Assembly (NCBI RefSeq): GCF_005497185.1
Contig: NZ_RJTN01000004.1
Location: 62,001 to 126,000, forward strand
Reading direction: 5' to 3'
Source: Pectobacterium polonicum
GTDB lineage: Bacteria; Pseudomonadota; Gammaproteobacteria; Enterobacterales; Enterobacteriaceae
DNA: 64,000 bases
This document shows positions 37,178 to 57,796 of this stretch, one piece after another (position 1 is the stretch's first letter; every line of letters starts with the position of its first letter). The position numbers and the translations under genes are program-made. Under the pieces are notes generated by a model. That model worked only from the letters and a program-made list of their open reading frames with translations, made no database searches and was not told the origin of the DNA.

Positions 37178-37729
37178 ATGAATTCTAGACGTATAACATT
37201 ACCTATTCTGGCTACATTATTCACCACATTCGGCCTTTCTCCCATCGCCAGCAGCGTGACGATTAATGGTCAGATTCCCGTATCACTCACCATTACTGCC
37301 GCCTGCACCATCAACAACGGCGCAGCAGGTCAAAGCGGTACATGGGGTACGCTCAGTTTTGGTTCCCACTCCGATTTAACGGCCAACATTGATAGCCAAG
37401 TGACCAGTGCTGGGGGCAACGGGATTACGGTCACGTGCTCTGTTGGCACCCCCGCCACGCTGAACATCGGTGCCGGGCTGAACGACAGCGGCGCACTGCG
37501 CAGACTCGCACCGGGAACGGGCACGTATAACATTCCTTATCGTTTATACAGCGACAGCAACCGCAGTGCCGAGCTTACGGCTACCGGGAGCACGGGTATT
37601 GCGATTGTCGCAACCGGCAACCCACAGCCAGTTTCTGTCTATGCCCGTATTCTGCCATCAGACCAGACGGTTCTGTCGCCCGTTGCGGGTTCTTATACCG
37701 ACACCGTCGCTGCCACAATCGTATGGTAA
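37178..37729 (+). CDS. Archaic (Csu-type) fimbrial major subunit, SCPU domain
   Basis: A 183-residue exported protein with a spore-coat-U (SCPU) domain. The signal peptide ends near SPIASS. The mature part starts TINGQIPVSLTITAACTINNG and has the usual Cys pair (AACTINNG and VTCSVGT), ending with the donor-like YTDTVAATIVW. This is the pattern of CsuA/B, the rod-forming pilin of Csu fimbriae. It is the first gene and is followed by a strong terminator, as expected for the most abundant subunit. It is distinct from the second subunit at 37913. Confidence 0.85.
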   Translation: MNSRRITLPILATLFTTFGLSPIASSVTINGQIPVSLTITAACTINNGAAGQSGTWGTLSFGSHSDLTANIDSQVTSAGGNGITVTCSVGTPATLNIGAGLNDSGALRRLAPGTGTYNIPYRLYSDSNRSAELTATGSTGIAIVATGNPQPVSVYARILPSDQTVLSPVAGSYTDTVAATIVW

Positions 37730-37737
37730 AGGTTTAC

Positions 37738-37767
37738 AGGCCGACATGCTCGTATGTCGGCCTTTTT
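37738..37767 (+). terminator. Terminator or attenuator after the first fimbrial subunit
   Basis: AGGCCGACAT-gctcgt-ATGTCGGCCT followed by TTTT, 9 bases after the subunit stop. It would allow high expression of the first subunit and lower read-through to chaperone, usher and tip genes. Confidence 0.88.
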
Positions 37768-37799
37768 AGGGTCATTGATCCACAAGAAAAGGAGCCGTT

Positions 37800-37898
37800 A
37801 TGTCACCACCTCTGATACGCGATGTTGCGTTTACTGACTACGCCACGTCGCTCCTTTTGGCTTCAGACGTTTCTCGTGTTGCCGTTCAACTTATGTAA
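37800..37898 (+). CDS. Possible 32-residue leader peptide upstream of second subunit
   Basis: ATG at 37800 is preceded by AAAGGAG (37788-37794) with a 5-base spacer, the best ribosome site in the operon. The frame codes 32 residues (MSPPLIRDVAF...VAVQLM) and stops 14 bases before the ATG of the next subunit gene, which itself has a poor ribosome site. No domain is recognised. It could be a leader whose translation feeds the next gene, or a relic of an older start. Only the reading frame and the ribosome site support it. Confidence 0.4.
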   Translation: MSPPLIRDVAFTDYATSLLLASDVSRVAVQLM

Positions 37899-37912
37899 CC
37901 ACTGGTATTGCG

Positions 37913-38449
37913 ATGCGTTTTTCGTCGGCATTGATGTTGTCACTTCTGCTGTCTGGTTACATCGTTCCCAAGGTGGCGATGGCACTCACCGTGAGCAGCA
38001 CATTCGATGTTACGGCAACGATACAAAAAGGCTGTGTTTTTGGCACCAGCACGGCAAGCAGCCAGCCCAATATGGGCACGCTGAATTTTGGGACGCGCAG
38101 CGCCGCGGCGACCAACGTGGATATCGCCAGCACGAGTGCGGGCGGATCGATTATCGCCACCTGCACGCCTGGCATTAACGCCATCATTGAACTGGACTAC
38201 GGCACCAATGGCGGAAGCAGTGCACAGCGTTATCTGAAAAATGCGGCAGGGACGCGGCTATTGGCCTATCAACTTTATCGTGATGCCGCACGCACACAGG
38301 TATGGGGAACGGGAAGTCTGGCACTCAGTATCGTCTCTTTTCCAGCGACTACTCAGACTTACACCGTTTATGCCCGCTATTTTGGCGGCACGCCTCTGCC
38401 TCCCGCAGGGGTTTATACCGATAACGTGACCGTTAGCCTGACTTATTAA
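37913..38449 (+). CDS. Archaic fimbrial minor subunit, SCPU domain
   Basis: A 178-residue SCPU-domain protein with a signal peptide ending at VAMA. The mature part begins LTVSSTFDVTATIQKGCVFGT and contains the second Cys in SIIATCTPGINA; it ends PPAGVYTDNVTVSLTY. It is a paralogue of the upstream subunit, comparable with CsuA/CsuB of the Csu operon. Acinetobacter has three pilins before the chaperone; only two are found here. The GCGATG start has little ribosome-site support. Confidence 0.83.
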   Translation: MRFSSALMLSLLLSGYIVPKVAMALTVSSTFDVTATIQKGCVFGTSTASSQPNMGTLNFGTRSAAATNVDIASTSAGGSIIATCTPGINAIIELDYGTNGGSSAQRYLKNAAGTRLLAYQLYRDAARTQVWGTGSLALSIVSFPATTQTYTVYARYFGGTPLPPAGVYTDNVTVSLTY

Positions 38450-38472
38450 AAATAAAACAGGGTAAATACAGG

Positions 38473-39258
38473 ATGAAAAGGAAAATGGCGTTTTTTATTC
38501 GGGCAATGGTCTTGTTGTTAAGCGGTATCAGCTTATCTTGCTTTGCCGCTAGCTCTATCCTCGTTTGGCCAATTTATCAGGTCATTGAATCAGATGAGAA
38601 CAGTTCGGCACTGTGGCTGGAAAATAAAGGCAATGCTCCCGTCGGTTTACAAATCCGCATCCTATCCTGGAAACAAATGGATTTTCAGGATCGTTATGCC
38701 GAACAAAGTAACGTGATAGCCACACCGCCGTTCATGACGTTGGAACCGGGTAAACGCAATATGGTGCGCCTGATTCGCGTCAACCCCGCGTCTGCCAATA
38801 CCGAGCAGGCTTATCGTATCATCGTTGATGAAATTTCCGCGCCTAACCAGCAAAACTCACCACAGATGGGTCTGCAATTCCAGATGCGCTATCTACTCCC
38901 CTTGTTCCTTGATGGTGAAGGCGTCTGGACGCATATTCGCCCGGATAAACGGCGAGCCAACACCGAACCAACGCTACCGGTACTGAGTTGGCGAATCAGT
39001 GCCGTTGGGGGGAAAAACTATCTTTATGTCCGCAACCGAGGCGTGGTTCATGCCCGTCTGAGTAATGTCTATTGGGCCGCCGACCAAAGCGGAAAAGGGA
39101 GCAGGACAACGTTAACCGACGGCTTTTTAGGCTATGTGTTACCGGGGCAAGAGATGCGTTGGCCGCTACCCGCAGGCGTATCCACGCCGGGCGCAGCTAT
39201 GCAGCTCTTCACCAACCTGATCGGTATCACCGATCCCATCTTGATTAAACGTGAATGA
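38473..39258 (+). CDS. Periplasmic fimbrial chaperone (CsuC-like)
   Basis: A 261-residue PapD-like chaperone. A signal peptide (MKRKMAFFIRAMVLLLSG... to CFA) is followed by SSILVWPIYQVIESDENSSALWLEN, an N-terminal Ig-like domain. The VIATPPFMTLEPGKRNMVRLIR stretch holds the subunit-binding Arg/Lys region, and the second domain runs from about residue 150 (WRISAVGGKNYLYVRNRGVVHARLSNV). It stabilises subunits in the periplasm and hands them to the usher. Its stop lies just before the usher start region; the usher frame overlaps it. Confidence 0.87.
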   Translation: MKRKMAFFIRAMVLLLSGISLSCFAASSILVWPIYQVIESDENSSALWLENKGNAPVGLQIRILSWKQMDFQDRYAEQSNVIATPPFMTLEPGKRNMVRLIRVNPASANTEQAYRIIVDEISAPNQQNSPQMGLQFQMRYLLPLFLDGEGVWTHIRPDKRRANTEPTLPVLSWRISAVGGKNYLYVRNRGVVHARLSNVYWAADQSGKGSRTTLTDGFLGYVLPGQEMRWPLPAGVSTPGAAMQLFTNLIGITDPILIKRE

Positions 39259-39316
39259 TGGCGCGGTTAACGGCAGAGGCGTATTTATTGACTGTACGGC
39301 CATGGTGAGGTCAGAC

Positions 39317-41683
39317 ATGACGATCAAAACAGGTGTCTTGCCCCTGCTCATGTATGCCGCACTTGCACTGTTTTATTCTGAGACCATTCTCGCGGAAGAC
39401 TATACCGATCTTCCCGCGCCTCCCAGCACCATGCCATCACTCAGTGAAAGCGTTTACTATTTAACGCTTTCCGTTAACGGACAGAGTGATAACGCGGTTG
39501 TTCCCGTCACCTACCGTGCAGGGAACTATTATGTGGATGCAACAACGCTACGTTCGAATCACGTCCGCTTACCGGATCAAAGCACGGGGCTCGTCAATGT
39601 CAGCACGCTGCCAGAGGTCACTACCGACTACGATCAGGCCATACAGCAGCTAAAGCTCACCGTGCCCACACTCTGGCTACCTGAGCAATCCGTTGACGGC
39701 GGAGGGCAAGACATGGCGCGCTTCCCTGCCCGCAGCAGCCCCGGCTTGCTGTTCAACTATAACCTGTATTACACCTCACCCCGCGGTAATTCGGATTCAC
39801 TCAACAGTTGGATGGAGCAGCGCTTTTTCAGCCCCTACGGAACCTTATCCAACACGGGGATCTACTATTTCACCTCGGGCAGCAATACTTCACAGCAAGA
39901 TGGCTACCAGCGCTTCGATACCTATTGGCGCTATAACGATAACGAACGCATGATCACCTATCAGATTGGTGACCTGATTAGCAACTCCCTGACATGGAGT
40001 AACTCGGTGCGTATGGGTGGCCTGCGTGTCGCCCGTAATTTCGGCCTTCGCCCGGATATCGTGACCTATCCGATGCTGCAATATACCGGTACGGCCGCCG
40101 TCCCCAGCACGCTGGATCTGTTTATCAACGGCTATAAAGCGAACAGCACCAACCTAAACGCAGGTCCTTTCACCCTCACCAATACGCCTTACCTGAACGG
40201 CGCAGGGGAAGCGACCGTCATTACTACGGATGCCCAGGGGCGGCAGGTTTCCACTACGATCCCTTTTTACGTCTCCAACGCATTGCTGCGAGAGGGATTA
40301 AGCGATTTTGATCTGTCGGTTGGCGTGTTGCGCCGGGATTATGGCATGCAGAATAATGCCTACACGGACGATCCGGCTATCAGCGGCATCTATCGATATG
40401 GGTTAACCAATAAACTGACGGTGTCGGCACATGGCGAAGCCGTACAAGATCTTTATCTGATCGGTGCAGGTGCCGATTTTACCCTTGGCCGCTGGGGGAC
40501 GCTGAGTTCGTCCTACAGTCAGAGCGAAAAGGATGCGACCGGACACCAATATACCGCAGGCTACTCCTACTACACTTCCGCCTTTGGCCTGAGCGTTCAA
40601 CATGCCAAGCGTAGCGAAGAATATAGCGATTTAACGGCCACGCTCACGGAAGGTCGCCTCAGTCGGGAAAGCAATCAGGCAACGATCAGCAGCCAAATCT
40701 TCGGTGCAGGCAATGGTTCGCTCGGCGTGGGGTATTTCGATATACGTGCTTACGATTCAGCCCGTACCCGCCTGCTGAATCTCTCTTTCAGCCGACAGAT
40801 CTGGCAAGGCAGTTCTATCTATCTCGCCTTTAACAAAGCGCTGGGAGAAAACGGCTACAGTGCCCAGATCCAGTTTGTGATGCCTTTTGGTAACAGCAGC
40901 AGCGTCAATGCTGGTGTTCAGCGCGACAACAATGGGGATTATTCACCGCGTGTCGGGGTGAGCCGTACCGCACCGACAGAGGGTGGATTCGGTTGGAACG
41001 CCGCGTATGGCGCGGGCAAAACCCCCTATCATCAAGGTTCTCTGAACTGGCGCGGCCCGTATGCCATGATGGCTGGCGGGACCTATGGCAATGAAGGGAA
41101 TACCACCCAGTGGGGGGAACTGAGCGGTTCGCTGATCTACATGAACGGAGGGCTTTTCCCTAGCAATCGTATTAACGACGCCTTTATTGTTGTCGATACC
41201 GATGGATACCCCGACGTCCCAGTAAAATATGAAAATCAACTGGTGGGGAAAACCAACAAACGCGGCCATTTACTCGTACCGTGGGTCGTGTCCAATTACC
41301 CCGCGAAAGTGGAAATCGATACGTTACAACTGCCAGCCAACGTCACGACCCCACAGGTGGAATCTCGCGTGTCGGTAAAAGAAGGTAGTGGCACCGTCGT
41401 GAAATTCCCCGTTCACACCGTGCGCTCAGCCAATATCCGATTGCGCAATACCGATGGCAACCCGCTTACGATTGGCACCTGGATAACAGATGAAGCCAGC
41501 GGAAACACCACCATCAGCGGCTATGATGGCCTAGCCTACTTCGCCAATCTGGGAACGGCTAACCGCTTACGTTTTAAACAAGAAGATGGACGGCTTTGCC
41601 GCGTGGCGTTCTCACTGCCGGAATCACAGACCATGATGGCAACCATCGGCCCGCTTACCTGTCAGACTGATCCAAAAGGATAA
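39317..41683 (+). CDS. Outer-membrane fimbrial usher (CsuD-like)
   Basis: A 788-residue outer-membrane usher. After the signal peptide (MTIKTGVLPLLMYAALALF...) comes the N-terminal chaperone-binding domain (YYLTLSVNGQSDNAVVPVTYRAGNYYVD). The beta-barrel pore follows with the plug domain (VPSTLDLFINGYKANSTNLNAGPFTL) and the C-terminal domains (VESRVSVKEGSGTVVKFPV). The start at 39317 has GAGG 6 bases upstream; a GTG at 39251 overlapping the chaperone gene is an alternative but adds a tail before the signal peptide. The next gene begins 4 bases after the stop. Confidence 0.87.
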   Translation: MTIKTGVLPLLMYAALALFYSETILAEDYTDLPAPPSTMPSLSESVYYLTLSVNGQSDNAVVPVTYRAGNYYVDATTLRSNHVRLPDQSTGLVNVSTLPEVTTDYDQAIQQLKLTVPTLWLPEQSVDGGGQDMARFPARSSPGLLFNYNLYYTSPRGNSDSLNSWMEQRFFSPYGTLSNTGIYYFTSGSNTSQQDGYQRFDTYWRYNDNERMITYQIGDLISNSLTWSNSVRMGGLRVARNFGLRPDIVTYPMLQYTGTAAVPSTLDLFINGYKANSTNLNAGPFTLTNTPYLNGAGEATVITTDAQGRQVSTTIPFYVSNALLREGLSDFDLSVGVLRRDYGMQNNAYTDDPAISGIYRYGLTNKLTVSAHGEAVQDLYLIGAGADFTLGRWGTLSSSYSQSEKDATGHQYTAGYSYYTSAFGLSVQHAKRSEEYSDLTATLTEGRLSRESNQATISSQIFGAGNGSLGVGYFDIRAYDSARTRLLNLSFSRQIWQGSSIYLAFNKALGENGYSAQIQFVMPFGNSSSVNAGVQRDNNGDYSPRVGVSRTAPTEGGFGWNAAYGAGKTPYHQGSLNWRGPYAMMAGGTYGNEGNTTQWGELSGSLIYMNGGLFPSNRINDAFIVVDTDGYPDVPVKYENQLVGKTNKRGHLLVPWVVSNYPAKVEIDTLQLPANVTTPQVESRVSVKEGSGTVVKFPVHTVRSANIRLRNTDGNPLTIGTWITDEASGNTTISGYDGLAYFANLGTANRLRFKQEDGRLCRVAFSLPESQTMMATIGPLTCQTDPKG

Positions 41684-41687
41684 AACG

Positions 41688-42698
41688 ATGCTGACCCCGA
41701 TACCGCAGATCCAGCACCTCTTCGCCACCAATCGGCGATCCGCCCGTTGGCTACGTCTGGCTTTTCTGCTGACGGCACTGTATTACGCGCCGGTTAGCTA
41801 CGCCGCCTGCACGACGCCACCGAGTTCCACCACGCTGGGGCCGTATGGTTCTTCGGTGGTTGGCGCTGACGGTACGCCACAGATCGTAGCATCGGGGAGT
41901 GGGTTCCGCTGCGCAGGTGGGATATTAAGTGTGGGAACGACCAATACCATTAAGGCCACGATACAGAGTGATAGCAACCCCAGCGGCACCACCATGCGGA
42001 TGCGTCGGGGGACAAGCTCAGACTATATTCCTTATAACCTGTGTATGGATTCAGGATGCAGTGCACCCTATAACATCGGCTCAAGCAATTCCTGGAGTCA
42101 AACCACTGTCCTGGGCATACTCGGTTTGTTCAATTCATCGGATGGCACCATGCCAATTTATATCCGCACCAGCATTGGCAACAATATCGCCGCAGGGACT
42201 TATACTGATACGGTAACCATTCTGTGGGATTACAGCATTTGTTCTCTGGGGATTCTGATAGCCTGTATTTATGATAGGGGATCAACAACCTCAACCCTCA
42301 ATATCACCATGAACATCACCAATGATTGCCAGATCACCAGTGCGCCGAATGTCAGTTTTGGTATTGCGGCGTTTCCCGCCGATTTCGCGGCGGTCAACAG
42401 TAGCCTTGGGGTGCGCTGTACGCTGCTGGGAGCCTATACCGTCAAGCTCGTCAGCACCCACCCCGATGATGCCAACTGGCGTAGAATGACGGCCACCGTC
42501 GGCGGCACGCCTTACTATTTGCAATATCAGCTCTATCGTACTGGAAACATCGCCTGGACCGAGACTAACGATTATAGCGGGACAGGCACGGGGATTACGC
42601 AGAGTATCCCGTACACCGCCCGCATTAACGCCAGCCAGGCCAGTAAGCCGGAGGGGGCGTATAAAGACACCGTCACGATTAACGTCACGATCAACTAA
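41688..42698 (+). CDS. Two-domain SCPU tip adhesin (CsuE-like)
   Basis: A 336-residue exported protein with two SCPU domains: residues about 40-200 ([19 protein letters not shown] ... [15 protein letters not shown]-like [15 protein letters not shown]) and 215-336 ([22 protein letters not shown] ... [17 protein letters not shown]). A tandem SCPU protein at the end of the operon is the mark of the CsuE tip adhesin, which binds hydrophobic surfaces through finger-like loops. Ribosome site AAGGATAAAACG precedes the ATG. Its end overlaps the convergent fadJ gene by 8 bases. Confidence 0.83.
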
Positions 42699-52666: not shown

Positions 52667-52741
52667 GTCTCCGTAGTTAAACGGATATAACAAGCCCCTC
52701 CTAAGGGCTAGTTACTGGTTCGATTCCAGTCGGGGACACCA
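52667..52741 (+). tRNA. argW: tRNA-Arg(CCU)
   Basis: A 75-base cloverleaf with encoded CCA. The acceptor stem is GTCTCCG/CGGGGAC; the anticodon stem AGCCC/GGGCT holds the loop CTCCTAA with anticodon CCT at 52700-52702; the T arm is CTGGTTCGATTCCAG. It reads AGG codons. Position after yfdC and sequence agree with E. coli argW, a known phage attachment site (CPS-53 in K-12). Confidence 0.97.
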
Positions 52742-52992: not shown

Positions 52993-53131
52993 TGTTTTGA
53001 GTTCAACACGTGGCACCAGCCTGAATTAATTTATCTAAATTAATATGTCCATACGCTATAAGTAGCGAATCGGAAAATAGTAATAAGCGTATTTTATAGA
53101 AGGTCGATACGGTCTCCCCGAGTAGTCTTGC

Positions 53132-53215
53132 TTAAACTTTATACACATCGACAGAAAGAGAAAATGGCGAGAAAAGAACAGCGCAACAGAGCAGCATTAA
53201 ACCTAAAAATCTCAT
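53132..53215 (-). CDS. Possible 27-residue exported peptide or truncated gene start
   Basis: On the minus strand an ATG at 53215 follows AAGGAAATAAGG. It codes MRFLGLMLLCCAVLFSPFSL-SVDVYKV, which looks like a Sec signal peptide or single membrane segment. After the TAA the same frame stays open for another 42 codons, so this may be a broken gene for an exported protein. Confidence 0.3.
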   Translation of the reverse strand: MRFLGLMLLCCAVLFSPFSLSVDVYKV

Positions 53216-53448: not shown

Positions 53449-54069
53449 ATGAAACGGAGTTATATAAAAAGCGGTATTGTACCTTTTCTTTTTCTCTCCA
53501 TCGGAGCGCACGCGCAAGACTTCCCCACGTTTGTTACAAACTTCACTACTGTGTTGCAAAAGAGTAAATTATCACAAAAAGACTATAATCAATTTATTGA
53601 ACTCACTAACTCCTATTTTATTCCAGCTAACTATGGTGTAAGCATAGCGAAAAAAGATAAAATCAGTTATAAAAACAACGAAATAATGCCAAAGCTTGAA
53701 TCTGACTCCAGCTTCATCTTCAATGGTTCAAATGGAAAATCAGCTTTTATTTCATTTCTACAAGAAATAAAAAACCTACCGCCGTCAGAAAAATATTTTG
53801 AAAAATCCTACACGGATGCAGGATCGGTCTTCGTCATGAATTACTATATGCTGTCATCAGGTATCATTAATATCCAGATGGACATCGTTTCTCCTCCAGG
53901 CCTCAAAGGAATTGTCATCAATCTACTTAACGAAAGGGAATCTGAACTTAGACAAGAAGCAGGCGAAGGAGCTTATATCTATCAATTCAAAAAAATAAAT
54001 GAGACCTATAAAATGGTCAGCGCCAACGTATATTCATCTTCAGATAAACGAATCTGCATGTCCTGCTAA
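53449..54069 (+). CDS. Exported protein of unknown function (first gene of island operon)
   Basis: A 206-residue protein with a Sec signal peptide (MKRSYIKSGIVPFLFLSIGA, cut after AHA). No family is recognised. The mature part is Lys/Asn/Ser-rich with no membrane segment; it ends with a Cys pair, RICMSC. A GTG at 53440, 5 bases after AAGGA, is an alternative start. It ends 10 bases before the next gene, forming an operon with two paralogous exported proteins. A+T content is clearly above that of the backbone, which suggests horizontal origin. Confidence 0.7.
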   Translation: MKRSYIKSGIVPFLFLSIGAHAQDFPTFVTNFTTVLQKSKLSQKDYNQFIELTNSYFIPANYGVSIAKKDKISYKNNEIMPKLESDSSFIFNGSNGKSAFISFLQEIKNLPPSEKYFEKSYTDAGSVFVMNYYMLSSGIINIQMDIVSPPGLKGIVINLLNERESELRQEAGEGAYIYQFKKINETYKMVSANVYSSSDKRICMSC

Positions 54070-54079
54070 GGTGATTTCA

Positions 54080-54889
54080 ATGGAATTGAAAATGATAAAA
54101 GTCATAATAAAATCTCTCTTATTGATAATACTTTCATCACACTATGTTAATGCAAATAATCTTGTGTGTCGTAGTCCTCTCGTCATTCAGTCGTTAATCA
54201 AAGAAGATCAAGAGAAAGCACAACCCATCAGCGACCGTGTATCTTTAGAGACAATTAAAAAAATTGAATTTGAATATGACATCATTATCACAAAACTTAA
54301 AACCAAAAATAACCTAAGCTGCTTTGGCAAAGCCAAGATAAAAATCCCATCCGATGTGTTAGATTTTTTAAAATACTATCCTATTCTAGAGAGTGGAGAT
54401 CCTAAAGCAAAAAGCATTTACCTTTCCAATCTTTACTCCCACAAAAAAGGCGATGAATACATCGCATTAGACCGTGTTTATTACAATGTTCATATTGCTG
54501 ATAATCAGCAAGAAACCAATATTATGTATCCACATGATGAGTCCGTCTCGCGCACACTTTATGGACTGGCCTGGTTACAAGAAAATGCAACAAGGCTGGA
54601 AGATCAATCACCACGCTTTAAATATAAAAAAGCACTCATAGAGTTCACTGAGGCTGATAGCGCGTTAAATATTTACTGGAGTAACCTACCCGACTATATT
54701 AAAGGGCAGATGAAAGAGGATGCACGGCAGTGGATAAAAAATAAAAATAAAAAATGCGGGGCAATAAAAACCCTCTCAAGTCAAAGCCACTCTCTGGAAG
54801 AAAAGACAAAAATTTATACCTGCCAACAACAAATGACTAGGGAAAGGCTGGTACAGCTTGGATTGACTGAAAACAAGGACAAGAAATGA
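54080..54889 (+). CDS. Exported protein with LprI/DUF1311-like C-terminus (paralogue 1)
   Basis: A 269-residue exported protein (signal peptide to about VNA, then NNLVCRSPLVIQ). Two features stand out. A central block SRTLYGLAWLQENATRLEDQ is shared with the next gene. The C-terminal region DARQWIKNKNKKCGAI ... KIYTCQQQMTRERLVQLGL has the W-x-x-x-R/K-x-x-x-C ... C-x-x-x-x-T-x-x-R spacing of LprI/DUF1311 (lysozyme-inhibitor-like) domains. The assignment to that family is by eye only. ATG at 54080 has AAGGTG upstream; an ATG four codons later is possible. The stop overlaps the next ATG. Confidence 0.7.
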   Translation: MELKMIKVIIKSLLLIILSSHYVNANNLVCRSPLVIQSLIKEDQEKAQPISDRVSLETIKKIEFEYDIIITKLKTKNNLSCFGKAKIKIPSDVLDFLKYYPILESGDPKAKSIYLSNLYSHKKGDEYIALDRVYYNVHIADNQQETNIMYPHDESVSRTLYGLAWLQENATRLEDQSPRFKYKKALIEFTEADSALNIYWSNLPDYIKGQMKEDARQWIKNKNKKCGAIKTLSSQSHSLEEKTKIYTCQQQMTRERLVQLGLTENKDKK

Positions 54890-55692
54890 AAACGCTCCAC
54901 TATGTCATGATTGGAATTATCCTTACTTGCACGTCAGCATATGCCAAGGACGACTTTCAATGCAGCGATCTCAATGCAGTGGAAGTCGTTAAAAAAACGT
55001 TTGCCGATCGTGCAAAAGCCATGTTCTATAAGAACCCTTCTCAATCTGTTGATACTGTGAGCGTGATTTATTCTAAATTATCAACTCAGCCACGCTGGGG
55101 AAAAGCATTCTCATGTAGCCTGCGGGTTGAAATTCCCGTAAGTCAGGAGATCATCGACATTATTCTTAATAAAGACGATCTTTTGTACACAAAAGATGAA
55201 ATGGATAAAATTAGCAATAACATTTTTACTAAAACAGGTGAAAGCAGAGACAATAGGCTAAGTGATAACAAGATTGTCATTCCATCATTTGCCTACGATC
55301 TCAGCATTCTCAATCATGAAAAGGAAATAAAAGTAGAAAAAAAATCCTATGATGCCCTATCCAGAGCAATTTATGGCGTAGCCTGGCTCAGTGAAAACGC
55401 CGAAAAAATCACAAAAACCGCGCAAGATAAAACGCTTGAAAATGAAAAAGAACAATATCTTTTCTTTTTCACCGACGTATATGGAATATTGGAAGACGCA
55501 CCTGAAGACATAAAGAGTAAATTCCACGCGTCTCAAGAAAAATGGATTAAAGAAAGAAATAACAAATGCGGCAATATCGAATCGTTAGAAGCGTATCATC
55601 CTTCAATTAAAGAACAGATTCATGCTTATCGTTGCCATAATGCAACGATGAGTGAACAAATATCAAGTTTAGAGCCAAGCGAAGGGGAATAG
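54886..55692 (+). CDS. Exported protein with LprI/DUF1311-like C-terminus (paralogue 2)
   Basis: A 268-residue paralogue of the preceding gene, starting within its stop (ATGA overlap). The signal peptide ends at AYA, before KDDFQCSDLNAVEVV. It shares the order: early Cys (FQCSDL), second Cys (AFSCSLRVEIPVS against LSCFGKAKIKIPS), SRAIYGVAWLSENAEKI, and C-terminal EKWIKERNNKCGNIE ... AYRCHNATMSEQISSL. Four conserved cysteines suggest two disulfides in the periplasm or outside. Function unknown. Confidence 0.7.
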   Translation: MKTLHYVMIGIILTCTSAYAKDDFQCSDLNAVEVVKKTFADRAKAMFYKNPSQSVDTVSVIYSKLSTQPRWGKAFSCSLRVEIPVSQEIIDIILNKDDLLYTKDEMDKISNNIFTKTGESRDNRLSDNKIVIPSFAYDLSILNHEKEIKVEKKSYDALSRAIYGVAWLSENAEKITKTAQDKTLENEKEQYLFFFTDVYGILEDAPEDIKSKFHASQEKWIKERNNKCGNIESLEAYHPSIKEQIHAYRCHNATMSEQISSLEPSEGE

Positions 55693-56022: not shown

Positions 56023-56814
56023 TTATTTTGATGCTGTTAGGCTGGCAGCAGTAAATTCTGGATAGCCAGCCGGCCGACCATTATTCAGATTAGTCAGGAA
56101 ATTATTGTCTTTAAGAGGAATTGAGGCCGATCCATAGTCAAACGCGTTTAATCGGTTCCGCAATTCCTGATTATTAATGCCATCGCCGTACATTGAGTAC
56201 CAACTGATAATATCTGGCGTGACAAATTTCTTATATGGGTTTTCTGCTTGTTCATTCGTTTTAGAAAAACGGAAAGCGTGGGTTAATGCACCATCTTTGT
56301 GATAAACAAATTTCAGATGCCCATCCTGTTTATCGATGCTCGCCGCATCTTTGGTCGTCAATTTACCATGAGCACTGTAGCTACCATGCGTCACTACGCC
56401 ATTTTTAGTCCAGATTGCAACATGTTCCCAATCATGGCGGTGGCCTGAATTTACACCGTTCAGTATCTGATCTTTTAAAAAATAGAGCGCGTAGAAGCTG
56501 CCACAATAACGGGAACCACCAGTGTTAACACAGGCGTATCGGTGCAGTGTATTTGATGAGTCAAGAAAGTTACTCCATCGGCACCCACCTGTTATATTTC
56601 CCGATGGCTTAAGCCCACCGTTTTGTACACCGTTACGGCTTACTCCGGCGCTGGGAAGGCAACCATCAGAATCAAAATCAAATACCGGTGCAATCGCCCG
56701 TGCATCAATTCCAGATGGCAAGGTTTGGTTTAATTTAGGGAAAGTATCCGCATGCGAAGAAAAAGTAGCGAACAATATTGAGAATGCCAGACTTGTTTTC
56801 TTTCCTGAAAGCAT
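56023..56814 (-). CDS. nip: Nep1-like necrosis-inducing protein (NPP1 family)
   Basis: A 263-residue secreted virulence factor. The signal peptide (MLSGKKTSLAFSILFATFSS to SHA) is cut before DTFPK. The diagnostic NLP heptapeptide GHRHDWE, a calcium-binding site needed for activity, is at residues 124-130. Cysteines at GCLPS, GCRW, YACVN and YCGS could form two disulfides. NLPs bind plant sphingolipids and lyse dicot cells; in Pectobacterium Nip is a type II secreted, quorum-sensing-regulated factor (family knowledge). Start at 56814 with AAGGAA upstream. It lies between two copies of an intergenic repeat. Confidence 0.93.
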   Translation of the reverse strand: MLSGKKTSLAFSILFATFSSHADTFPKLNQTLPSGIDARAIAPVFDFDSDGCLPSAGVSRNGVQNGGLKPSGNITGGCRWSNFLDSSNTLHRYACVNTGGSRYCGSFYALYFLKDQILNGVNSGHRHDWEHVAIWTKNGVVTHGSYSAHGKLTTKDAASIDKQDGHLKFVYHKDGALTHAFRFSKTNEQAENPYKKFVTPDIISWYSMYGDGINNQELRNRLNAFDYGSASIPLKDNNFLTNLNNGRPAGYPEFTAASLTASK

Positions 56815-57034
56815 ATTAATTCCTTTAGTAAAGAATGACCTTTTTAAAACCAATATCATCAATAGCTACAAAAAATGCATCCATGATGAAAGCGTAAGAA
56901 GATCCACTTTTAACAAGAAAAAAGAGGAAATCAAAATCTTTTATTTCCAACAATGAAGATGAATATATTTAGGCTGCAAAATAATGTAGGGAACTTATAT
57001 AATAGTCAGCAAGCCCCCTACCACATTAGGACGT

Positions 57035-57796
57035 TTACTCTCCAAACACGTCATAACGCTGATTTTTCGCATCAAAGCGATATTCCAACAGAATATCCCC
57101 TCCGCCGTGGGAATAGCAGTTCAACATGATGCTGCGATTATCTTCGCCGTTCTCAATATTCATATAAACCGGGGTCATGAAAAAGCCGAACTGGCATTGT
57201 TGAAAATCAGGTTTAAGAAGCTGATCGACATTGCCGGTCTTCTTGTTAATCGCCTTGATCCCCTCAACAACCATTCCCGTATCGCTGTTTTGATACACTC
57301 CGACGAAACTGTGGGTTTCCGTTTGCCCCCAGAAAGGAATATCGACCAGCCCTTCTACCTTGGCTGGTTGCTCGCTATCGTCAAAGGACGCAACACGCCG
57401 TAAGCTAACATCATAACGAGCTTTCCCGTTCGACCACTCGCCACGGAGCTCTTCTCCCGTTTCCGTTAATTTAAACGGGCAATGTGTCATATCCATGTCA
57501 GACTTAACGCCCTGAACGATATATTTATCATAATCCTGAGGCGTATGAATTTCGCAGATCTCGAGCGACGTTTCCGAGAGTCGACCATAAAGAGGGATCG
57601 GTGCTCGGTATTTATCGTAAAAGTAACTTCCCAACAGGTTCTTATCTTGGTCAATACTGTATTTCTGCAATGAAAAATGCACCGGATAAGGCCCAATATG
57701 GCCTTCGTAATTGCTCACGACATACCAGCCAGCATGCGCTCCCCATGTTGCCGTCCACAGTCCACAGGCTATTAAGGTTGATACCGCTACTCTCAT
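57035..57796 (-). CDS. Exported protein of unknown function
   Basis: A 253-residue protein with signal peptide (MRVAVSTLIACGLWTATWGA to HAG). No family is recognised. The mature part is rich in Gly and aromatic residues, with three cysteines (LEICEIH, MTHCPFK, QQCQFGF) and a fourth late (LNCYSH). Ribosome site AGGTGAATAG precedes the ATG. It is transcribed towards nip, 220 bases away. Base composition is less extreme than that of the operon at 53449. Confidence 0.65.
   Translation of the reverse strand: MRVAVSTLIACGLWTATWGAHAGWYVVSNYEGHIGPYPVHFSLQKYSIDQDKNLLGSYFYDKYRAPIPLYGRLSETSLEICEIHTPQDYDKYIVQGVKSDMDMTHCPFKLTETGEELRGEWSNGKARYDVSLRRVASFDDSEQPAKVEGLVDIPFWGQTETHSFVGVYQNSDTGMVVEGIKAINKKTGNVDQLLKPDFQQCQFGFFMTPVYMNIENGEDNRSIMLNCYSHGGGDILLEYRFDAKNQRYDVFGE

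Follow-up and report, generated by a model that had tools for sequence, protein, structure and literature searches.

A conserved three-gene unit of exported proteins in Pectobacterium, two of them of ScwA/LprI type, and its possible role against rival bacteria

What do three closely packed genes for exported proteins do near a tRNA gene of the plant-rotting bacterium Pectobacterium polonicum, and against whom might they be directed? The genes, here called the trio, occupy positions 53449-55692 of a stretch of 64,000 nucleotides, hereafter the window (contig NZ_RJTN01000004.1 of assembly GCF_005497185.1, positions 62,001 to 126,000 of the forward strand). The trio is one conserved unit of signal-bearing proteins, in which genes 2 and 3 are diverged two-domain copies of the ScwA/LprI type. 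The full-length relatives of these two genes in the family are found mainly in clusters of the type VI secretion system (T6SS). On sequence comparison we suggest, at a little under an even chance, that the trio may be a mobile cassette of orphan immunity genes, whose products would protect the periplasm from the glycan-cutting enzymes of rival bacteria.

Architecture and conservation of the trio

Gene 1 (53449-54069, forward strand) encodes an exported protein of 206 residues that belongs to no known family and has a CxxC motif at its end. It is separated by 10 bases (54070-54079) from gene 2 (54080-54889, forward strand), which encodes an exported two-domain ScwA-type protein of 269 residues with its LprI domain at residues 187-260 and cysteines at 30, 81, 226 and 248. 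Gene 3 (54886-55692, forward strand) is a paralogue of gene 2 with the same architecture, 268 residues long and with conserved cysteines at 26, 77, 228 and 250, and the two genes share an ATGA overlap (54886-54889). By eye, all three proteins begin with a Sec-type signal sequence (...GAHA-QD, ...YVNA-NN and ...SAYA-KD, in gene order), and no lipobox is seen in any of them. The trio is rich in A+T, with a G+C content of 0.36-0.41 in 2-kb intervals covering it as against 0.44-0.58 in those ending before 53 kb, and it lies about 0.7 kb downstream of a tRNA-Arg(CCT) gene (52667-52741, forward strand, by ARAGORN), the upstream border of a variable region. The tight packing, export signals, A+T richness and tRNA linkage had been described in an earlier note made from the letters of this DNA, and all of these points hold, the coordinates exactly.

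Is this arrangement kept during evolution? The genus was sampled with 25 species-level Pectobacterium genomes, that of the window included. Gene 1 is intact in 13 of them and fragmented in one more (G168); the same 13 also have an intact gene 3, which is fragmented in G168 and reduced to a 26-residue tail in G167. As a unit, the trio is intact in 13 genomes, decayed in one and left as a scar in one, and the 10-base gap and the ATGA overlap, judged by reading-frame coordinates and match offsets, are identical in all 13 intact copies. The mean ratio of nonsynonymous to synonymous substitution rates (dN/dS) over these 13 genomes (78 pairs) is 0.18 for gene 1, 0.16 for gene 2 and 0.21 for gene 3, and all three genes are under purifying selection. 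The value for a neighbouring gene, P0005 (57035-57796), is 0.05, so that the trio is maintained, less tightly than this neighbour. Conservation and dN/dS together rule out that the trio consists of chance open reading frames. One copy departs from the rest: gene 3 of G172 shares 91% identity with that of the window up to its LprI end and 41% within it, and this end looks replaced. A replaced end was also considered for the decayed copy of G168 and rejected; as that end is similar to the window's, only G172 is counted. A promoter and terminator scan gave a result no better than shuffled sequences, and no known anti-phage system was matched by the trio in PADLOC.

Gene 1 had been called unlike any known family, and so it is: no match was obtained in Pfam, NCBIfam, PHROG or PADLOC, and a PDB search gave no credible one. 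All four loci of named gene 1 relatives are from Pectobacterium. Searches of 148 further Enterobacteriaceae genomes and of plasmids gave no match, and the single weak match outside the genus in an order-wide sample of 295 (G404, E 1e-3), having two internal stops, was not accepted. A relation to DUF3828/Tai3-like immunity proteins was also tried and dropped, as hhalign against the sole DUF3828 protein of locus L057 gave nothing.

The alignment of genes 2 and 3 spans both proteins from end to end (21% identity, E 3e-18), in agreement with the paralogy proposed before. An SR..Y..AWL.ENA block and four cysteines are invariant in an alignment of eight gene 2/3 proteins, the S and R of the block being not constant in some other orthologues. 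The assignment to LprI/DUF1311 made in the earlier note stands directly for gene 2, which scores 26.2 bits against the Pfam LprI family (PF07007; cut-off 22). Gene 3, with 17.9 bits, falls below that cut-off and is joined to the family only via its full-length homology to gene 2. Among the lysozyme inhibitor families, MliC/PliC, Ivy, PliG and PliI have no Pfam match in genes 1-3. A PDB search with gene 3 or with a profile of five members of the gene 2/3 family (A1) returned no match, and PDB searches with profiles of both families gave nothing usable. In PHROG, gene 2 matches 5094 (E 1e-8) and 4895 (E 0.01), both families of unknown function, and genes 1 and 3 are unmatched. The LprI domain of gene 2 is named after LprI of Mycobacterium tuberculosis, a lipoprotein (Sethi 2016, as cited by others).

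The closest studied architecture is that of ScwA (SL1344_0490) of Salmonella Typhimurium, a periplasmic protein of 275 residues with a C-terminal LprI domain and two disulfide bridges, low in G+C and considered horizontally acquired by its authors (PMC7933661). The same authors attribute the lysozyme inhibition by M. tuberculosis LprI to an additional MliC domain in that protein (PMC7933661). Like ScwA, genes 2 and 3 encode proteins of about 270 residues with a Sec signal (by eye), a C-terminal LprI domain (sub-threshold in gene 3) and four conserved cysteines. The cysteines of ScwA are C30, C100, C237 and C259, and the third and fourth are 22 residues apart in ScwA, gene 2 and gene 3 alike. 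A Salmonella copy (L125) is 22% identical to gene 2 (E 5e-17, 216 aligned columns) and 19% identical to gene 3 (E 2e-7). The homology to the ScwA type extends over the full length, as the family profile, which includes genes 2 and 3 themselves, matches near the whole length. Unlike ScwA, which is a single gene between copA and ybaP, here there is a diverged pair, 19-22% identical to the Salmonella copy, behind a third gene and in a variable region.

Relatives in type VI secretion clusters

Where are the relatives of genes 2 and 3 found outside the genus? The A1 profile was searched in 392 genomes of the family and matched in 15: two are Pectobacterium, nine others carry full-length or nearly full-length relatives, and four match at the LprI end only. 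Six of the nine full-length relatives stand directly before vgrG in T6SS clusters (L057, L058, L096-L099). A clpV gene lies upstream in five of these six: it is complete in L058 and L097, truncated where the contig of L057 ends, and in pieces in L096 and L098; in L099, tssB, tssC and tssK are upstream of the LprI gene, with no clpV match. NCBIfam confirms clpV and vgrG of L058 and clpV of L097 (TIGR03345, TIGR01646). The typical arrangement is clpV-X-vgrG, with the relative at X. In L096, L098 and L099 the LprI gene is whole while clpV is broken or missing, which is possibly immunity kept after the weapon was lost. Among five plasmid records viewed, that of Rahnella has its copy flanked by tssE and a VasL gene. 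As for the matches at the LprI end only, L102 shows no T6SS genes by eye, and the surroundings of L103-L105 fall outside the context counts.

In a tree of 23 proteins, with four of the 13 orthologues each for genes 2 and 3, the two genes join the protein of L056 (99/99) and stand on the side of the T6SS copies, a supported branch (97/100) separating them from the copies at copA loci; long branches leave the finer placing unsure. In three more genomes of the order the match is confined to the LprI end, and the N-terminal part is a different one. One genome of another family in the order (G363) has three LprI-type proteins of 282-292 residues within 5.3 kb (L167:718-6015), again with a different N-terminal part, and in G256 an LprI-type protein (L169:7703-8542) lies upstream, by about 3 kb, of a long gene resembling vgrG by eye.

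A T6SS immunity function has been suggested for LprI proteins before, in SPI-19 of S. Dublin (PMC8867033) and among the neighbours of WHIX effectors (PMC12135965), whose domain takes its name from the WHxxxH motif. This motif is found in five of ten effector-like proteins tested from our loci. It is present in the effector of L058, with a GH19 match above the cut-off, and in those of L119 and L120, where the GH19 match is weak and below the cut-off. The genome of the window has a similar pair of its own: at L080:8317-9840 (reverse strand) an Hcp gene is followed by a pesticin-type lysozyme (PF16754) and then directly by an LprI protein, likely a T6SS effector-immunity pair to judge from its gene order. 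The trio shares with such candidates the LprI domain, the Sec signal and, through its relatives, the T6SS setting. Unlike the small single-domain proteins of S. Dublin (146 residues), L080 (140) and L057 (146), which lie near toxins, the products of genes 2 and 3 have two domains and come as a pair, with no toxin found nearby.

The region beside nip

The trio is followed by nip, a gene of the NPP1 family (56023-56862, Pfam). The layout of this region was compared in stretches from 18 of the 25 genomes, seven with the intact trio, one with the decayed copy and ten without the trio, one of these ten with the scar. Of the 17 stretches from other genomes, eight contain the tRNA-Arg(CCT) gene, several others being too short to reach its position; G151 has other tRNAs in its place. 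The content on the trio side of nip is variable. Besides the trio itself, the genes that differ between genomes there encode a small exported protein, a GNAT acetyltransferase (Pfam), and an Lrp-type regulator together with an MFS transporter; others are phage-like or integrase-like. The names GNAT (apart from the one Pfam-based case), Lrp, MFS, phage-like and PAAR were given mostly by eye. In L122, L153 and L157, three of the ten genomes that lack the trio, nip and the GNAT gene face each other directly. The window lacks the GNAT gene, and at 53072-53215 (reverse strand) it has only a 46-residue match to the exported protein of about 100 residues. This protein is whole in relatives (L052:7032-7337, PHROG 6462), with the GNAT gene beside it. 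Since nip and P0005 also occur without the trio, the trio is a separate unit. An hcp gene (PF05638, L060:7552-8037) lies near the decayed trio in the same region of Pectobacterium sp. PL152, on the contig of L054, the only such case among the 18 stretches.

P0005 itself (57035-57796, reverse strand) encodes an exported protein of 253 residues with no Pfam family and is present in 24 of the 25 Pectobacterium genomes. It is 42% identical to the product of a gene in a T6SS vgrG region (L099:14931-15716), which overlaps the end of a gene for 316 residues. The 316-residue protein has no Pfam match; its RGRGG-HLTG block we take to be GH19-like. Outside Pectobacterium, relatives of P0005 were found in seven of 295 family genomes. 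Three of them stand directly after effector-like genes (L099, L119, L120), and one (L118) shares its array with TsiV3 (PF20889), a PAAR-like gene and a VgrG3-like lysozyme toxin (PF21277). By these positions, P0005 is probably a second, fixed orphan inhibitor or immunity protein at the same place.

Is there a toxin to go with the trio? A search for relatives of eight T6SS wall-effector proteins, taken from other loci, found none in the 18 compared stretches, seven of which carry the intact trio, though unknown effector types would escape this search. No WHxxxH protein was found among the reading frames of the genome's own T6SS stretch, which stops at a contig end. The same genome has six LprI matches, five of them above the cut-off, and none of the six is on the T6SS contig. 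VipB, taken over the genus, is present in 22 of the 25 genomes. Elsewhere in the window, what looks like a chaperone-usher fimbrial operon, A+T-rich at its start, was recognised by eye at 37178-42698 (forward strand).

What the trio may do

If the trio is an immunity cassette, how would it work? Its proteins would reach the periplasm, where the two paralogues would fold around their conserved cysteines. Their LprI domains might then bind and block glycan-cutting toxins injected there, such as muramidases and GH19 or pesticin-type lysozymes. The two diverged LprI domains could cover two enzyme classes or act as a pair, and gene 1 could be a third inhibitor or a partner. As no cognate toxin was found beside the trio, the cassette would serve for defence only. 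Such a state agrees with the results on the genome's own T6SS contig, where neither LprI matches nor, in the T6SS stretch, WHxxxH proteins were seen, and with G166, which has the trio and no VipB match. The intact, decayed and scarred states in the genus and the replaced-looking end in G172 fit a mobile cassette. T6SS immunity proteins are expected to be encoded next to their effector, and no effector was found next to the trio; our claim is therefore limited to its working like an orphan immunity protein. Immunity-type genes without toxins are known from orphan immunity genes and acquired interbacterial defence systems (PMC12247911, PMC10470768); those belong to human gut bacteria and Bacteroidales, whereas the candidate here is from Pectobacterium and concerns LprI-type proteins. 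As for the source of the enzymes, rival bacteria appear more likely than the plant, because relatives lie in T6SS clusters, the genome has the Hcp-lysozyme-LprI row of L080, and the kin of P0005 are in immunity positions. A role against lysozyme-like enzymes, raised in the earlier note, is hence plausible, while the host as their source, its first example, is less so.

Several observations weigh against an immunity role. Inhibition by genes 2 and 3 is something we infer. Gene 3 scores too low for LprI, and gene 1 taken by itself shows no tie to T6SS. Two of the nine full-length relatives (L100, L101) lie between copA and ybaP-like genes, by eye the place of Salmonella ScwA, and one (L056) is in neither setting. 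Of the five plasmid records only that of Rahnella places the copy in a T6SS cluster: the Salmonella one is at copA-ybaP (annotated TraB/GumN), and no T6SS genes were found near the Plesiomonas, Pantoea and Klebsiella copies. The six T6SS copies are not monophyletic in the tree, nor are they independent, because of shared ancestry. Their fixed place beside varying effectors would suit an accessory part of the system no less than an immunity protein. Nor can the trio be predicted from the presence of T6SS, since VipB is found in 12 of the 13 genomes with the intact trio and in 10 of the 12 others. Three of the seven relatives of P0005 are away from T6SS genes (L116, L117, L121), and the dN/dS of the trio is not raised. 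In addition, ScwA was reported to alter the level of MltD and to leave lysozyme sensitivity unchanged (PMC7933661).

The last point leads to the strongest rival, strongest because the only tested protein of the kind that we found acts in this way and confers no lysozyme resistance. Genes 2 and 3 might be ScwA-like regulators, partners in the periplasm that control how abundant or how stable the cell's own lytic transglycosylases such as MltD are, and the copies borne in T6SS clusters would then tune wall opening for T6SS assembly. The ScwA architecture and cysteine plan with the same last spacing, the homology to the copA-ybaP copy of Salmonella and the control of MltD level by ScwA all agree with such a role. 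Yet the trio is absent from about half of the genus and lies in a variable region, which is unexpected for a regulator of a core wall enzyme, genes 2 and 3 stand on the T6SS side of the tree, and the authors of the ScwA work deferred the question of whether ScwA binds MltD directly (PMC7933661). We consider this explanation unlikely. Might the proteins instead block lysozyme-like or chitinase enzymes of the plant during tissue rotting? The position near nip invites this thought and is the only plant link of the trio that we found. In P. brasiliense, moreover, another LprI gene marks a blackleg-causing clade (PMC10459533, PMC8045196); it was read as anti-host by the authors, which was part of why they selected it as a marker (PMC10459533). 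We also asked if the trio could be this published gene, named LZI, and rejected it: the printed target has 303 bases (PMC10459533), the probe has no exact match in 166 loci, and the forward primer has none in the window with three mismatches allowed, so that it is a different gene. Given also that nip and P0005 persist without the trio, that ScwA left lysozyme sensitivity as it was, and that most full-length relatives are in T6SS clusters, an anti-host role seems quite improbable.

There remains protection against endolysins of phages or prophages, as superinfection exclusion. LprI-type proteins on Klebsiella plasmids, the two PHROG matches of gene 2 and the phage-like genes seen by eye in the same region of some relatives speak for it. 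On the other side, gene 3 is unmatched in 50,697 phage records (a search made with gene 3 and not gene 2), no relative was found by the A1 profile in IMG/VR, genes 1 and 3 have no PHROG match, and the T6SS setting of most full-length relatives points elsewhere; we regard this role as very unlikely. Carriage of the trio by phages or viruses was rejected on the first two of these results.

Returning to the immunity cassette, a wider scenario could be drawn. The ScwA family may have begun as a T6SS-cluster inhibitor of glycan-cutting toxins, at X of clpV-X-vgrG; ScwA of Salmonella would be a stranded immunity protein and its effect on MltD a by-product; and the trio would be a broad, three-part and exchangeable periplasmic shield with swappable LprI ends, gene 1 acting jointly. 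This scenario is speculative, and we hold it possible but doubtful. No paper on the trio was found among the literature matches listed, subscription papers lying outside the search, and the T6SS setting of ScwA relatives was not found mentioned in the available part of the ScwA paper (PMC7933661).

What does the trio mean for this family of proteins? There is a tendency to label LprI/DUF1311 proteins lysozyme inhibitors and to regard them as virulence factors against hosts. For the two-domain form the evidence points to bacterial competition instead, and the T6SS reading offers a new view of the puzzling result with Salmonella ScwA. For Pectobacterium, the region beside nip appears as a place where species gain and lose such genes.

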